Source: Rhodanobacter sp.
GTDB lineage: Bacteria; Pseudomonadota; Gammaproteobacteria; Xanthomonadales; Rhodanobacteraceae
Assembly: GCA_004298015.1 (NCBI GenBank)
Contig: SCSE01000047.1
Location: 1-64,000 of the forward strand
Direction of reading: 5' to 3'
DNA length: 64,000 nucleotides
Part shown: positions 40,179 through 46,264 of the stretch, in pieces
Layout of the letters: each line of letters opens with the position of its first letter
How positions within the stretch are numbered: the stretch's first letter is position 1
Program-made: the position numbers and the translations under genes
Notes under the pieces: model-generated
The model's input: only the letters and a program-made list of their open reading frames with translations
The model's database searches: none
Told to the model about the DNA's origin: nothing

Positions 40179-41963
40179 TCAGGGCGTGGCGGCCTCGCGC
40201 TGCGGCGATGACGCAGTGCTGGCCAGGGCTTCGGCGACGCGCCGTTGCTCCTGATGCAGGCGTTCGGGCAACCGCGGGGTGAAGCTTTCCAGGTACTCGC
40301 CGATCGCCGCGATCTCGGCCTGCCAGCCGGCGACGTTCACGGCGAGCAGCTGGTCGAGCTGGTGCTGATCGAGCGCGAGGCCCTCAAGCTTGAGCTCGCC
40401 GGTGGCCGGCAGGATGCCGATGGCCGTTTGCCGTCCGCGTGCGCGGCCGGTTACCCGTTCGATCATCCATTCCAACACCCGCATGTTGTCGCCGAAGCCG
40501 GGCCACAGGAAGGCACCGCTGGGGTCCTTGCGGAACCAGTTGACATGGAAGATCTTCGGCAGCTTCGCCGCGGGCTGGTCGAACGACAGCCAGTGCGCGA
40601 AGTAGTCGCCGTAGTGATAGCCGCAGAATGGCTTCATCGCCATCGAGTCGCGGCGCAATACGCCGACGGCGCCGGTGGCGGCAGCGGTGGTTTCCGAGCC
40701 CATCGCGGCGCCCATCAGCACACCGTGACTCCAGTCGCGAGCTTCCATCACCAGTGGCAACAGGGCCGGCCGGCGGCCACCGAACACGATCGCGCTGATT
40801 GGCACCCCCTGCGGTGCCTCGGCCTGAGGTGACCAGGTCGGACACTGGCGGGCACGCACCGTGAAACGTGAATTGGGATGCGCGGCCGGGCCATTGGCCG
40901 GATCGTATGGCCGCCCTTGCCAGTCGGTGGCCGGGGTGCCGGGCAGGCCTTCCCACCACGGCTGGTTGTCCGCGGTGACGGCAACGTTGGTGAAAATAGT
41001 GTCGTGCGAGATGCTTTCCAGCGCATTCGGGTTGGTGCTGCCGCTGGTGCCCGGGGCCACACCGAAGAAGCCGGCCTCCGGGTTGATGGCATACAGCTGG
41101 CCGTCGTTGCCCGGATGCATCCAGCAGATATCGTCGCCGACGGTCCAGACCTTCCAGCCATCGCGGCGGTAACCTTCCGGTGGAATCAGCATCGCCAGGT
41201 TGGTCTTGCCACAGGCCGAGGGAAAGGCGGCGGCGATGTAGTGGGTCTCGCCAGCCGGGTTCTCGATGCCGACGATCAGCATGTGTTCGGCCAGCCAGCC
41301 TTCATGCCGGGCCTGGTCGCTGGCTATCCGCAGGGCGTGGCATTTCTTGCCCAGCAGGGCGTTGCCGCCGTAACCGGAGCCGTAGGACTTGATCGTGCGC
41401 TCGGCGGGGAAGTGCATGATGAAGCGGCGCTCGGGGTCGAGTTCGCCGGTGGAGTGCAGGCCCTTGACGAAGGTGCCCTCGCGCTCGATGCGCGCAAGCG
41501 CGGCGGCACCCATGCGGGTCATGATGCGCATGTTGGCGACCACGTAGGGGCTGTCGGTGATTTCCACACCGCAGCGCGCCAGCGGCGAGTCGATCGGCCC
41601 CATGCAGTAGGGGATAACGTACAGCGTACGACCGGCCATGCAGCCATCGAACAGCGCATCGATTTTCGCGTGGGCCTCGGCCGGCGCCATCCAGTGGTTG
41701 TTGGGGCCGCTATCGTGTTGCTGCGGGTGACAGACGAAGGTCAGGTGTTCGACGCGTGCCACGTCGGCCGGATCGGATCGGTGCAGGTAGCATCCCGGAT
41801 GGGTCTGCTGATTCAGTTCGATCAGGTCGCCGTCGTGCAGCATCTGCTGCAGCAGACCCTGATATTCACCGTCCGAGCCGTCACACCAGTGAACCCTTGC
41901 CGGGCGGGTCAGGGCCGCCACATCGTCGACCCAGCGCCCAAGCGCTTCCAGCTTGCTGGCCAT
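40179..41963 (-). CDS. pckG: Phosphoenolpyruvate carboxykinase (GTP)
   Basis: GTP-dependent PEPCK, decarboxylating oxaloacetate to phosphoenolpyruvate in gluconeogenesis. 594 aa from ATG 41963 (MASKLEALGRWVDDV) with GAGAGGG upstream; an ATG directly before it is equally possible. Kinase loop FPSACGKTNLAMLIPPEG, the GDDICWMHPG metal region, YVIPYCMGPIDSPLARCGVEITDSPYV and the FLWPGFGDNMRVLEWMIERV motif are all present. Length is normal. Fits with the fatty-acid oxidation genes that follow, since growth on acetyl-CoA needs gluconeogenesis. Confidence 0.96.
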   Translation of the reverse strand: MASKLEALGRWVDDVAALTRPARVHWCDGSDGEYQGLLQQMLHDGDLIELNQQTHPGCYLHRSDPADVARVEHLTFVCHPQQHDSGPNNHWMAPAEAHAKIDALFDGCMAGRTLYVIPYCMGPIDSPLARCGVEITDSPYVVANMRIMTRMGAAALARIEREGTFVKGLHSTGELDPERRFIMHFPAERTIKSYGSGYGGNALLGKKCHALRIASDQARHEGWLAEHMLIVGIENPAGETHYIAAAFPSACGKTNLAMLIPPEGYRRDGWKVWTVGDDICWMHPGNDGQLYAINPEAGFFGVAPGTSGSTNPNALESISHDTIFTNVAVTADNQPWWEGLPGTPATDWQGRPYDPANGPAAHPNSRFTVRARQCPTWSPQAEAPQGVPISAIVFGGRRPALLPLVMEARDWSHGVLMGAAMGSETTAAATGAVGVLRRDSMAMKPFCGYHYGDYFAHWLSFDQPAAKLPKIFHVNWFRKDPSGAFLWPGFGDNMRVLEWMIERVTGRARGRQTAIGILPATGELKLEGLALDQHQLDQLLAVNVAGWQAEIAAIGEYLESFTPRLPERLHQEQRRVAEALASTASSPQREAATP

Positions 41964-42072
41964 CATTCCCTCTCTGGTCTTGTCGCAAAAAAGAGCTGGA
42001 ACGGTAGTTTGCGAGCACTGGCATTGCAAGGTCGCGCGCAGCAGGGGGCGCGATCCGGGTGCTCCGGGAGAA

Positions 42073-42161
42073 CTCAAGGGGTTGGGAAAATATTGAACGC
42101 CGTAGCGAAAGCGTCGTCAGGTGTTCGCGGCAGGCGGGTGATTTTTCCTCAGCCTCTCAAG
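42073..42161. repeat. Complete stop-codon-linked hairpin element at tetR
   Basis: 89 bp. Read on the minus strand, it begins at the tetR TGA (CTTGAGAGGCTGAGGAAAAA), passes through CGCCTGCCGC-type sequence and a GAACACC/GGCGTTC-like stem, and ends with a diverged reverse copy of its start (TTTTCCCAACCCCTTGAG). It matches the copies at 17018, 31632 and 62736 and may form a long transcript-end hairpin. Confidence 0.7.
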
Positions 42162-42735
42162 CGGGGGCCAGGGTGGCGATCATGTGCTCCACGTAGGCAT
42201 CGAATTCCTCGTGGTTGATACGCGGCAGGCCGAGGGTGAAGTTCAGCTGCAAAAAACCGACATAGGCGGCATAGGTCAGTCGGGCCCGATTGAGGGCTTC
42301 GGGCGGCAGCAATCCGGCCTCGCGATAGACCGTGGTCAGGAATTGCATCCGCCGCTGCGACACGCGCGCCATCACCGGGACGACCTGCGGATGATCGAGT
42401 GCCTTCAGCAGCGCGGCGTAGACGCGGTGGGGATGCAGCTCGTGGGCAACCCGCCGGAACAGTTCGGGCAGGCGCTTGCGCGGATCGGCGATTTGTTCGA
42501 TCTGGCTGATGATCTCGCGCTCGCCATACTGCTCCCAGCGTTCGAGTGCTGCATTGAGCAACGCTTCGCGGGTGCGGAAGTGCCAGTAGAAACTGCCCTT
42601 GGTTACCCCCAGCTGGCGCGCCAGCGCCTCCACTGCCAGCGCGCCCACGCCTTGCTCGGCGATCAGGTGCAGGGCGGCAACTTCCCAATCCTCGGCCGAC
42701 AGACGGGTACGCTCGGGTTTGCTGCTGACATTCAT
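42157..42735 (-). CDS. TetR-family transcriptional regulator
   Basis: 192 aa from ATG 42735; the 294-aa track ORF extends into the divergent gene. HTH at about residues 28-55 (GALAVEALARQLGVTKGSFYWHFRTREALLNAAL). The C-terminal half is the ligand/dimer domain. It is divergent from a hydrolase-fadE operon and both starts carry CCATAC/GTATGG palindromes, so it probably represses itself and that operon in response to an acyl-CoA or related ligand, as FadR/PsrA-type TetR proteins do. The ligand is inferred. Confidence 0.9.
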   Translation of the reverse strand: MNVSSKPERTRLSAEDWEVAALHLIAEQGVGALAVEALARQLGVTKGSFYWHFRTREALLNAALERWEQYGEREIISQIEQIADPRKRLPELFRRVAHELHPHRVYAALLKALDHPQVVPVMARVSQRRMQFLTTVYREAGLLPPEALNRARLTYAAYVGFLQLNFTLGLPRINHEEFDAYVEHMIATLAPA

Positions 42736-42739
42736 GTCC

Positions 42740-42754
42740 GTATGGTAGCCATAC
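42740..42754. promoter_or_regulatory. Operator-like palindrome at the tetR start
   Basis: GTATGG-TAG-CCATAC, a perfect 6-bp inverted repeat ending 4 nt before the tetR ATG. The same half-sites recur in opposite arrangement in front of the divergent hydrolase gene. Confidence 0.6.
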
Positions 42755-42846
42755 CTCGGAGATTTGTAATCTGCAGCCAGGGGGATGAAGTGGAAATCAC
42801 CGATCCGCTGCGCTGGCGACGGCCTGCCCGCGTGCTCAGCGGTATC

Positions 42847-42887
42847 TTGACGACGCTTGTCTGCACCATCCATACTCATCCGTATGG
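42847..42887 (+). promoter_or_regulatory. Promoter-operator of the hydrolase-fadE operon, possibly leaderless
   Basis: -35 TTGACG (42847-42852), 18-bp spacer, -10 CATACT (42871-42876). A start 7-8 nt downstream falls on the ATG at 42884, so the mRNA may have no leader; no Shine-Dalgarno is visible. The inverted repeat CCATAC - TCATCC - GTATGG (42870-42887) covers the -10 and the start codon, where a bound TetR protein would block initiation. Confidence 0.5.
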
Positions 42888-43786
42888 TCATTGCAGATGC
42901 GCCCCCGCCCGTTGTCAGTCGTTTCCTGGTCGCCGACCTCGGCCTGGCGGTGGAGACACGCCATCCAGACGGCCGTCCAACGCTGCTGTTTGCCCATGGC
43001 TTCGGCCAGACGCGTGGCGCCTGGAACACCGCGGCATCCACGCTCGCCGCCGCGGGTTGCCGCTGCGTGAGCTTCGACAGCCGTGGCCATGGAGAAAGCG
43101 ACCGGGTGGCTGGCGGCGACTACCATATGGAGCAGTTTGCCGACGATCTGCTGCGACTGGCCGGCGCGCAGCCACAGCCTCCGGTACTGGTGGGGGCCTC
43201 GATGGGCGGCCTGCTCGGCCTGCTGGTTGCGGGCGAGATCAGTCCGTCGGCATTTCGCGCGCTGGTGCTGGTCGACATCACGCCGCGCTGGGAAACCGCC
43301 GGGGTTGAACGAATTCTGACCTTCATGCAGGCCCATCCCGAGGGCTTTGCCGATTTCGCCGAAGCCGCCGAGCAGATCGCCGGCTACTTGCCGCAGCGCC
43401 GCGAGCGCAAGACCGAGCAACAGCTGCGCCCGTTGTTGCGGCAAAGCGCCGATGGCCGCTTGCGCTGGCACTGGGATCCGGCGCTGCTTGCTGGCATGGT
43501 GCAGGAGAGCGCGCGTTACCAGCCGCGTCTGCAGGCTGCTGCGGCGGCGGTCGGGATACCCGTGTTGCTGCTGTCAGGTGCGCGCAGCGACGTGGTTTCA
43601 CACGCGACGGTCGGCGAATTTCTGCAGTTGGTGCCGCATGCACGGCACGTGGACTTGCCCGATGCCACGCACATGGTCGCGGGCGACGCCAACGAGGCCT
43701 TTACCTACGAGGTCGTGCGTTTCGTGGAAAGTCTTGAAGCATCATCGAAAGCCGGCCCGCGGGTCGGTACTGTTGAACCGCAATGA
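42884..43786 (+). CDS. Alpha/beta-fold hydrolase
   Basis: 300 aa from ATG 42884 (MVIADAPPPVVSRFLV). Oxyanion-loop motif FAHGFGQTRGAW, nucleophile elbow LVGASMGGLLG, a late acid near LLSGARSDVVS and the catalytic His in LPDATHMVAGD. This resembles esterase/thioesterase-type hydrolases. Its stop lies 10 nt before fadE, so the two are co-transcribed; a role in releasing or trimming acyl groups in lipid degradation is a reasonable inference. Controlled by the divergent TetR. Confidence 0.85.
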   Translation: MVIADAPPPVVSRFLVADLGLAVETRHPDGRPTLLFAHGFGQTRGAWNTAASTLAAAGCRCVSFDSRGHGESDRVAGGDYHMEQFADDLLRLAGAQPQPPVLVGASMGGLLGLLVAGEISPSAFRALVLVDITPRWETAGVERILTFMQAHPEGFADFAEAAEQIAGYLPQRRERKTEQQLRPLLRQSADGRLRWHWDPALLAGMVQESARYQPRLQAAAAAVGIPVLLLSGARSDVVSHATVGEFLQLVPHARHVDLPDATHMVAGDANEAFTYEVVRFVESLEASSKAGPRVGTVEPQ

Positions 43787-43795
43787 GGTGTTGAA

Positions 43796-46264
43796 ATGTC
43801 TGTTCTGTTGACCGTACTGGCGGCGCTGATCGCGAGCGGGGCCTGCGCCTATCATCGCACCAGCCTGCGCGTGTGGGCGATCGCCACCGTGATCACCACC
43901 GTGCTGGCTGGCCTGCTGTTGCAGGCGCCGTGGACGATGCTGATCCTGTTGATCGTCGAACTGGCGATCGCCGTGCCGTTGCTGATGGTGGGCTTTCGCC
44001 GAAGGCAGATCAGCGCACCGCTGCTAACGCAGTTCGCCAAGGTCACGCCGAGGCTCTCCGATACCGAGCAGACCGCACTGGAAGCCGGTACGGTCGGTTT
44101 CGAGGGTGAGCTGTTTTCCGGCAAGCCCGACTGGCACGCGTTGCTGCGCCAGCCCAAACCCGCGCTCAATGCGGAGGAGCAGGCCTTCATGGATGGCCCG
44201 GTGGAAGAGCTCTGCGGCATGCTCGACGACTGGCAGATCACCCACGAACTGGCGGATCTGCCGCCGAATGTGTGGGAGTTCATCAAGAAGAACAAGTTCT
44301 TCGGCATGATCATCCCCAAACGCTACAACGGCCTGGAATTTTCGGCCCTGGCGCATTCAGCGGTGCTGCAGAAGCTGGCCACGATGTCGCCGACCGCGGC
44401 CTCGACGGTCGCGGTGCCCAATTCACTGGGGCCGGCCGAGTTGCTGCTGCATTACGGCACCGAGGCGCAGAAGGACTACTACCTGCCTCGGCTGGCCGTG
44501 GGCGACGAGATTCCCTGCTTTGCGCTGACCGGTCCTTATGCCGGTTCCGACGCGACCTCGCTCACCGATTTCGGCATTGTCTGCAAGCAGACCGTCGACG
44601 GCACCGAGACGCTGGGCATCAAGCTCACGTTCGACAAGCGCTACATCACCCTGGCACCGGTCGCCACCGTGGTCGGGCTGGCATTTCGCCTCTACGACCC
44701 GGACCAGTTGCTCGGTGACAAGGCCGACCTCGGCATCACCCTGGCCTTGCTGCCGCGCAGCACGCCCGGCCTGCAGATCGGGCGTCGTCACTTTCCGCTC
44801 AACGTGCCGTTCCAGAACGGTCCGCTGCACGGCAAGGATGTGTTCGTGCCGATCTCGACCCTGATCGGCGGACCGAACATGGCCGGGCAGGGCTGGCGCA
44901 TGCTGGTCGAGGTGCTGTCGGTGGGGCGCGCGATATCGCTGCCGTCGAACGCCACCGGCGGGGTCCGGTCGGCGGTCGCCTCCACCGGTGCCTACGCTCG
45001 CATGCGCAAGCAGTTCGGGCTGGCGATTGCCCGCTTCGAGGGCGTCGAGGAAGCACTGGCGCGGATCGGCGGGCTGACCTATGCCACCGCGGCGCTGTCA
45101 CGCGCCACCGCCGCGGCCGTGGACCGCGGGGAAAAGCCGGCCGTGACCTCGGCAATTGCGAAGTACCACACGACCGAATTCGGCCGCATCGTGGCCGGTG
45201 ATGCCATGGACGTGCATGGCGGCAAGGCGGTGCAGCTCGGTCCGAAGAATTATGCCGGCCGCGCCTGGGAAGGGGTGCCGATCGCGATCACGGTGGAGGG
45301 CGCCAACATCATGACGCGCAGCCTGATGATCTTCGGTCAGGGTGCGATCCGCTGCCATCCCTACGTCCTGAAGGAAATGCAGGCACTGACGATCAGCGAC
45401 CGCGACGAGCAGCTGAAGACGTTCGACCGGGCCTTGTTCGGCCATATCGGTTTCGGCCTGTCCAACGCGGTGCGCGCCTTCACCCTGGGTCTGACCGGTT
45501 CGCGTATCGGCGACACCGCCGGCGATGCCTACACCCGCCGTTACTACCGCAAGCTCAACCGCTATTCCGCGGCGCTGGCGCTGTGTGCCGATGTGTTCAT
45601 GGGCGTGCTTGGCGGCAAGCTGAAATTCAAGGAGAAGTTGTCCGCCCGTCTCGGCGACGTCCTCAGCTACCTGTACATCGCCAGCGCCATGCTCAAGGGC
45701 TACGAGGATGCCGGTCGGCCCGAAGCGGATCGTCCGTTGCTGGCCTGGGCGTTCCATGAATGCGTATGGCGGATGCAGATGGCGCTGGACGGCGCGATCC
45801 GCAACTTTCCGGTGCGTCCCGTCGGCTGGTTGCTGCGGGTACTGGTGTTCCCGTTCGGGCGTCGTGAGGTGCCGCCGTCCGACCGCCTGGGACGCCGTGT
45901 CGCGGCGCTGATCAGCGCACCGGGCGAGGCGCGTGATCGACTGCTTGAATGGGTCTATCTCACGCCCACCGCCAACAACACGATCGGCCGGATGCATGCC
46001 TTGCTGCCGGAGGTGATCGCGGCCGAGCCGATCGAGCGCAAATTCGCCAAGGCGCAGAAGGCCGGGCAGTTCAAGTCACACGATTATGTCGAGCAGCTGG
46101 CCGAGGCGCAGCAGCTCGGCGTGATCACCGCGGCCGAGCAGGCCTTGCTCAAGCGGGTGCAGGAAGCCGTGTTCGAGTTTATTTCGGTGGACGATTTCGA
46201 TACCTCCGAATTGCGTGCGGCGGTAACTCGAGCGGATGCCGAAAAGCCTGCCAGGGTGGCCTGA
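43796..46264 (+). CDS. fadE: Acyl-CoA dehydrogenase, FadE type
   Basis: Large, membrane-anchored acyl-CoA dehydrogenase, 822 aa (E. coli FadE is 814). Two N-terminal hydrophobic segments (about 2-19 and 28-65) are followed by the dehydrogenase core (LPPNVWEFIKKNKFFGMIIPKRYNG; CFALTGPYAGSDATSL; GRAISLPSNATGGVRSAVA) and the FadE-specific C-terminal domain. It catalyses the first step of fatty-acid beta-oxidation, with electrons going to EtfAB. Preceded by a hydrolase gene 10 nt upstream and a divergent tetR. Confidence 0.95.
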   Translation: MSVLLTVLAALIASGACAYHRTSLRVWAIATVITTVLAGLLLQAPWTMLILLIVELAIAVPLLMVGFRRRQISAPLLTQFAKVTPRLSDTEQTALEAGTVGFEGELFSGKPDWHALLRQPKPALNAEEQAFMDGPVEELCGMLDDWQITHELADLPPNVWEFIKKNKFFGMIIPKRYNGLEFSALAHSAVLQKLATMSPTAASTVAVPNSLGPAELLLHYGTEAQKDYYLPRLAVGDEIPCFALTGPYAGSDATSLTDFGIVCKQTVDGTETLGIKLTFDKRYITLAPVATVVGLAFRLYDPDQLLGDKADLGITLALLPRSTPGLQIGRRHFPLNVPFQNGPLHGKDVFVPISTLIGGPNMAGQGWRMLVEVLSVGRAISLPSNATGGVRSAVASTGAYARMRKQFGLAIARFEGVEEALARIGGLTYATAALSRATAAAVDRGEKPAVTSAIAKYHTTEFGRIVAGDAMDVHGGKAVQLGPKNYAGRAWEGVPIAITVEGANIMTRSLMIFGQGAIRCHPYVLKEMQALTISDRDEQLKTFDRALFGHIGFGLSNAVRAFTLGLTGSRIGDTAGDAYTRRYYRKLNRYSAALALCADVFMGVLGGKLKFKEKLSARLGDVLSYLYIASAMLKGYEDAGRPEADRPLLAWAFHECVWRMQMALDGAIRNFPVRPVGWLLRVLVFPFGRREVPPSDRLGRRVAALISAPGEARDRLLEWVYLTPTANNTIGRMHALLPEVIAAEPIERKFAKAQKAGQFKSHDYVEQLAEAQQLGVITAAEQALLKRVQEAVFEFISVDDFDTSELRAAVTRADAEKPARVA

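Follow-up and report, generated by a model that had tools for sequence, protein, structure and literature searches.

A predicted TfmR operator overlaps the putative leaderless promoter and the start codon of the hydrolase-fadE operon in Rhodanobacter and related bacteria

The palindrome CCATACTCATCCGTATGG (CCATAC-N6-GTATGG, designated O2), located in front of the hydrolase and fadE genes in a 64-kb stretch of Rhodanobacter DNA (the window), is very probably the operator of the TfmR-type repressor encoded by the divergent gene tetR. From O2 the repressor would control a leaderless hydrolase-fadE promoter and would be released by a long-chain fatty acid, and autoregulation of tetR would be slight or absent. 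In the mechanism that we propose, a TfmR dimer on CCATACT-N4-CGTATGG would cover the −10 box, the transcription start and the hydrolase start codon, and would thereby keep RNA polymerase out. Once a long-chain fatty acid has released TfmR from O2, the hydrolase-fadE mRNA would begin on the hydrolase AUG or no more than about 2 nt away from it; the hydrolase would be translated leaderless and fadE by means of its own Shine-Dalgarno sequence. tetR would probably be transcribed from a leaderless promoter of its own with little or no autoregulation. The elements concerned are as follows, in coordinates of the window.

42157 to 42735, minus strand: tetR, orthologue of Xanthomonas tfmR, 192 aa (TetR_N, E=3e-14; 61-64% identity to Xanthomonadaceae orthologues)
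42728 to 42745, no strand: ACATTCATGTCCGTATGG, weak match to O2 with 2 mismatches, overlapping the tetR ATG (second-best matrix score in the window)
42740 to 42754, no strand: O1, GTATGGTAGCCATAC, GTATGG-N3-CCATAC, rejected as an operator (everted, second half-site not conserved)
42742 to 42747, minus strand: predicted −10 box of tetR, TACCAT, 6 nt before the ATG; core of O1 (ATGGTAGCC conserved)
42764 to 42769, minus strand: predicted −35 box of tetR, TTACAA, 16-nt spacer (TTTGCAA/TTTGTAA conserved at equal distance)
42847 to 42852, plus strand: −35 box of the hydrolase-fadE promoter, TTGACG (at most of the 103 loci TTGAC is kept, with CATACT following after 17-18 nt)
42870 to 42887, no strand: O2, predicted TfmR operator (conserved in 26 genera and in Xanthomonadaceae)
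42871 to 42876, plus strand: −10 box CATACT, within the left half-site of O2 (each base 98-100% conserved with genus weighting)
42884 to 43786, plus strand: mhpC-like alpha/beta hydrolase, start codon within O2, no Shine-Dalgarno (Abhydrolase_1, E=3e-25)
43785 to 43788, plus strand: Shine-Dalgarno GAGG of fadE (from the sequence)
43796 to 46264, plus strand: fadE, acyl-CoA dehydrogenase, 822 aa (ACDH_C, E=7e-110; PRK09463, 1104 bits against a cut-off of 600 bits)

The earlier note on this DNA had proposed TTGACG and CATACT as promoter hexamers and a palindrome overlapping the −10 box and the start codon, and both were found exactly: the hexamers occupy 42847-42876 with an 18-nt spacer and are followed after 7 nt by the ATG at 42884-42886, and O2 covers CATACT as well as this ATG. 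The hexamer pair is the sole sigma-70-like match within 42600-43000 (0.1 expected). CATACT agrees with the consensus at 4 of 6 bases and the spacer is 18, which counts against our explanation. The full O2 sequence occurs once in the 64-kb window (0 in 100 shuffles) and once in the 3.9-Mb genome. Further near-O2 sites in the same genome were rejected as chance matches, those inspected having no beta-oxidation context and their counts being near those of a reversed-pattern control. When all inverted repeats of 6 bp with spacers of 0-10 bp were counted, the 155-bp region contained 2, against 0.42 expected from mononucleotide shuffles (P for at least 2, about 0.10), which is not remarkable. Conservation therefore had to decide the significance of the palindromes, and it was strong for the palindrome at 42870 (O2) and absent for that at 42740 (O1).

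About 150 loci were compared in all; kinship among the genomes means that these loci are not independent. The element consisting of promoter, O2 and ATG is deeply conserved across Rhodanobacteraceae and Xanthomonadaceae. TTGAC-N(17-18)-CATACT-N5-CGT-ATG is near-invariant in 103 Rhodanobacteraceae loci (again from related genomes, not independent), and little conservation is seen upstream of the −35 box. With genus weighting, CATACT and CGTATG are 96-100% conserved, and the palindrome positions C1, C11, G12 and T13 equal the −10 box and the ATG in conservation. Since the CGT before the ATG and the C before ATAC are required by neither a promoter nor a start codon, their conservation supports the reading of O2 as an operator. 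The exact 12-base motif was present in 37 of 40 Rhodanobacter genomes, and a reversed-pattern control gave almost no matches. Departures were seen in some of the divergent genera (g2, g11, g13, g17, g25), where the best match is an upstream site or the elements are weaker, and members of g15 match the element poorly.

In Lysobacter and Luteimonas, which have no mhpC at this place, the palindrome and promoter are kept and are followed by an untranslated stretch and then fadE; in Luteimonas kalidii the ATG within O2 is changed to ACG. Two Xanthomonas with genomes of 3.5-3.7 Mb (L302, L303) have a broken mhpC frame, in which codon 87, counted from the operator ATG, is a stop, and both retain O2 and a second operator copy, O3, with one mismatch each. 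Because O2 outlasts the loss or disruption of the hydrolase gene, it is to be regarded as an operator and not as a start codon alone. Many Xanthomonadaceae and some deep Rhodanobacteraceae, among them Xanthomonas, Arenimonas, Silanimonas and Oleiagrimonas, carry O3 (CCATAC-N5-CGTATTGAC) over the −35 box, at a distance of 36-38 bp from O2 on its upstream side. A clear O3 was not found in this Rhodanobacter, and the copy is eroded in the genus.

The start codon was assessed from reading frames and ribosome-binding sites. At all 101 loci where the core motif of the hydrolase was located, an open frame leads to it from the operator ATG; the N-termini have 11 different lengths. A Shine-Dalgarno 4-mer precedes that ATG at 0/103 loci, as against 24/27 fadE genes. 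As judged from these counts, the ATG at 42884 is the true hydrolase start; the lack of a Shine-Dalgarno sequence described in the earlier note is thus a property of every Rhodanobacteraceae locus counted. The −10 box ends 7 nt before the A, and from the usual promoter spacing we infer a transcription start at A42884 or at G42882, giving a leaderless message or one with a 2-nt leader. The distance of about 6-8 nt between −10 box and start codon is itself conserved and matches a leaderless arrangement, in which the 5' end is a prediction. The proposal of a start on or next to this ATG, and that of a leaderless or near-leaderless promoter under a TetR-family operator, are consequently upheld as predictions. 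A reading of O2 as a 5' RNA hairpin was set aside, for a transcript from at or near the AUG would not contain the left arm.

Among 198 Rhodanobacteraceae genomes, 186 encode a strong relative of the TetR protein, nearly always a single one, and the protein's orthologues at 61-64% identity are those of Xanthomonas, Pseudoxanthomonas, Lysobacter and Arenimonas. The recognition helix GVTKGSFYWHF is invariant between Rhodanobacteraceae and Xanthomonadaceae, and tetR is divergent from mhpC-fadE with the same synteny as at X. citri XAC3052. In X. citri, TfmR (XAC3052) binds the mhpC/fadE promoter and represses it 50-100-fold, is released by long-chain fatty acids in EMSA, and binds the fadH promoter as a second target in vitro and in vivo (PMC6637906). 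By analogy with X. citri, binding, repression and ligand release are predicted for the Rhodanobacter orthologue; the ligand is more likely the long-chain fatty acid itself, acyl-CoAs being also possible. A gene for GTP-dependent PEP carboxykinase follows tetR on the same strand (40179-42077, minus strand in the window), and this neighbourhood recurs at most of the Rhodanobacteraceae, Arenimonas, Lysobacter and Chiayiivirga loci checked; it fits growth on fatty acids. A Rhodanobacter-type tetR, 92% identical, was also met on a contig that its label assigns to a Castellaniella MAG and that is probably mis-binned.

The earlier note had suggested a search for CCATAC-N6-GTATGG near other fad genes. 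Such a motif stands just upstream of the fadH ATG in 17/20 Xanthomonas genomes and two Pseudoxanthomonas, and it was not found at fadH in Rhodanobacter or other Rhodanobacteraceae. The Xanthomonas fadH pattern was built from the first fadH sites, and 17 is hence a conservation count and not 17 discoveries; the two Pseudoxanthomonas matches came from the O2/O3 pattern alone. O2 is assigned to TfmR because its motif recurs at fadH, a known TfmR target, and because the recognition helix is invariant. The missing fadH site in Rhodanobacteraceae counts against our explanation; it reflects targets that differ between lineages, and a site at fadH is not what defines the protein. The fadH promoters of Rhodanobacteraceae contain TTCATACGATCGTTTGAA or TCAAACGATCGTTTGA, a PsrA-like CAAAC-N4-GTTTG palindrome, which in the genome studied here lies about 30-50 nt upstream of the conserved fadH domain, and fadH was accordingly rejected as a TfmR target in Rhodanobacter. 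Control of fadH thus seems, from the promoter sequences, to have been exchanged between two fatty-acid regulators, TfmR and PsrA. No PsrA operator (CAAAC-N2-4-GTTTG) was found in the hydrolase promoter sequence.

On the tetR side, the earlier note had one regulator silencing itself as well as beta-oxidation, TfmR repressing both promoters via O1 and O2 through shared half-sites of different spacing. Many TetR regulators autoregulate, and both palindromes are exact; O1, reported as GTATGG-N3-CCATAC upstream of tetR, is indeed present, unique in the window (0.01 expected) and 4 nt from the tetR ATG. Furthermore, most Rhodanobacter retain GTATGG on the tetR side, and the weak O2-like site that overlaps the tetR ATG has the proper geometry. 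However, the half-sites of O1 are everted (GTATGG..CCATAC versus CCATAC..GTATGG in O2), and its second half is exact in 3/17 Rhodanobacter and has mismatches at 2-5 of 6 positions outside the genus. What is conserved there, on the plus strand, is ATGGTAGCC and TTTGCAA, the complements of the tetR −10 and −35 boxes, so that the conserved core of O1 is the tetR −10 box. A conserved operator of the same geometry, looked for at the tetR promoter as a test of autoregulation, was not found: with a matrix derived from O2 sites, O2 scores 29.8 bits and the best match on the tetR side 7.7 bits, in another register, over the tetR ATG. In X. citri, activity of the tfmR promoter is unchanged by deletion of tfmR (PMC6637906). 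Geometry, conservation and this published promoter fusion speak against O1 as a second operator, which was rejected, and repression of both promoters through O1 and O2 is distinctly unlikely. The tetR promoter is predicted to be a second leaderless promoter. TfmR contact at 42728-42745 is possible, though weak, as is weak autoregulation of tetR in Rhodanobacter, not via O1 as a palindrome. At Xanthomonadaceae loci that include L179, L190, L192 and L202, near tfmR, CCATAC and GTATG/GTACG occur with a 16-bp spacer (for example AACCATACGCCAGCGGCGGGAACAGTATGC), one helical turn wider than the spacer of O2.

Two alternatives concern O2 itself. It may be a real operator with transcription starting further upstream, the hydrolase mRNA then having a leader and lacking a Shine-Dalgarno sequence for some other reason. 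Genes of this kind, with leaders and without Shine-Dalgarno sequences, exist, and the −10 box is an imperfect match. Yet TTGAC and CATACT, 17-18 nt apart, are the sole conserved promoter-like blocks upstream, and the Shine-Dalgarno is absent at 103/103 hydrolase loci and present at fadE; an upstream start is therefore unlikely. It is highly improbable that some other regulator uses the palindrome, or that the palindrome merely arises from the conservation of a −10 box and a start codon. These two account for part of the conservation, but not for that of C1, C11, G12 and T13, nor for a palindrome that persists without the hydrolase gene in Lysobacter, Luteimonas and two Xanthomonas. As to another regulator, the palindrome recurs at the TfmR target fadH, and PsrA, the other fatty-acid regulator, uses CAAAC-N2-4-GTTTG (PMC10304680). 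Repression by TfmR from O2 is the explanation that we prefer.

The closest known system is TfmR-mhpC-fadE of X. citri (XAC3052-3054; PMC6637906), with an orthologous regulator, a divergent gene order and the same predicted operator in Xanthomonas orthologues; Xanthomonas differs in having O3 over the −35 box and a site at fadH, whereas Rhodanobacter has O2 only. A mechanism in which a TetR-family operator overlies a leaderless promoter is already known from AcuR-acuI-dddL of Rhodobacter sphaeroides (PMC3017554), where an inverted repeat with N6 overlaps the leaderless operon promoter and the first gene lacks a Shine-Dalgarno sequence that the downstream genes have. The first gene there is the autoregulated regulator, unlike the enzyme gene here, which is divergent from the regulator and has its start codon within a half-site. 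The leaderless transcripts of lambda cI and Tn1721 tetR (cited in PMC3017554) similarly have a leaderless first gene in a repressor-controlled region, but they encode the repressor and their sequences are unrelated. PsrA and Smlt2053 (PMC10304680, PMC13104628) are likewise TetR-family beta-oxidation regulators sensing long-chain fatty acids; they differ in operator (G/CAAAC-N2-4-GTTTG/C) and in acting on the fadBA operon, and TfmR and PsrA share about 18% identity. The main text of the X. citri paper (PMC6637906) gives no TfmR operator, the words 'motif' and 'footprint' are both absent from the X. oryzae TfmR paper, and no published Xanthomonas start-site map or TfmR motif was found in the open literature searched, supplements aside. 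The TfmR operator and its conservation, its double form, and the start codon within a half-site with natural controls appear to be new in the papers searched.

Taken together, we propose with moderate confidence that across much of an order an 18-bp element places the start codon in a repressor half-site and so fixes repression, transcription start and translation start, that the operator outlives the gene, and that it is double in many Xanthomonadaceae and single (O2 alone) in Rhodanobacter. One conserved element of 18 bp would thus pack repression, transcription start and leaderless translation start, and the lineages that have the operator without the hydrolase gene serve as natural controls. 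TfmR ties fatty acids to virulence in Xanthomonas, where its DNA site was not mapped in the papers found. The motif CCATAC-N5-CGTAT, predicted at mhpC-fadE and fadH, would make the TfmR regulon searchable and testable.
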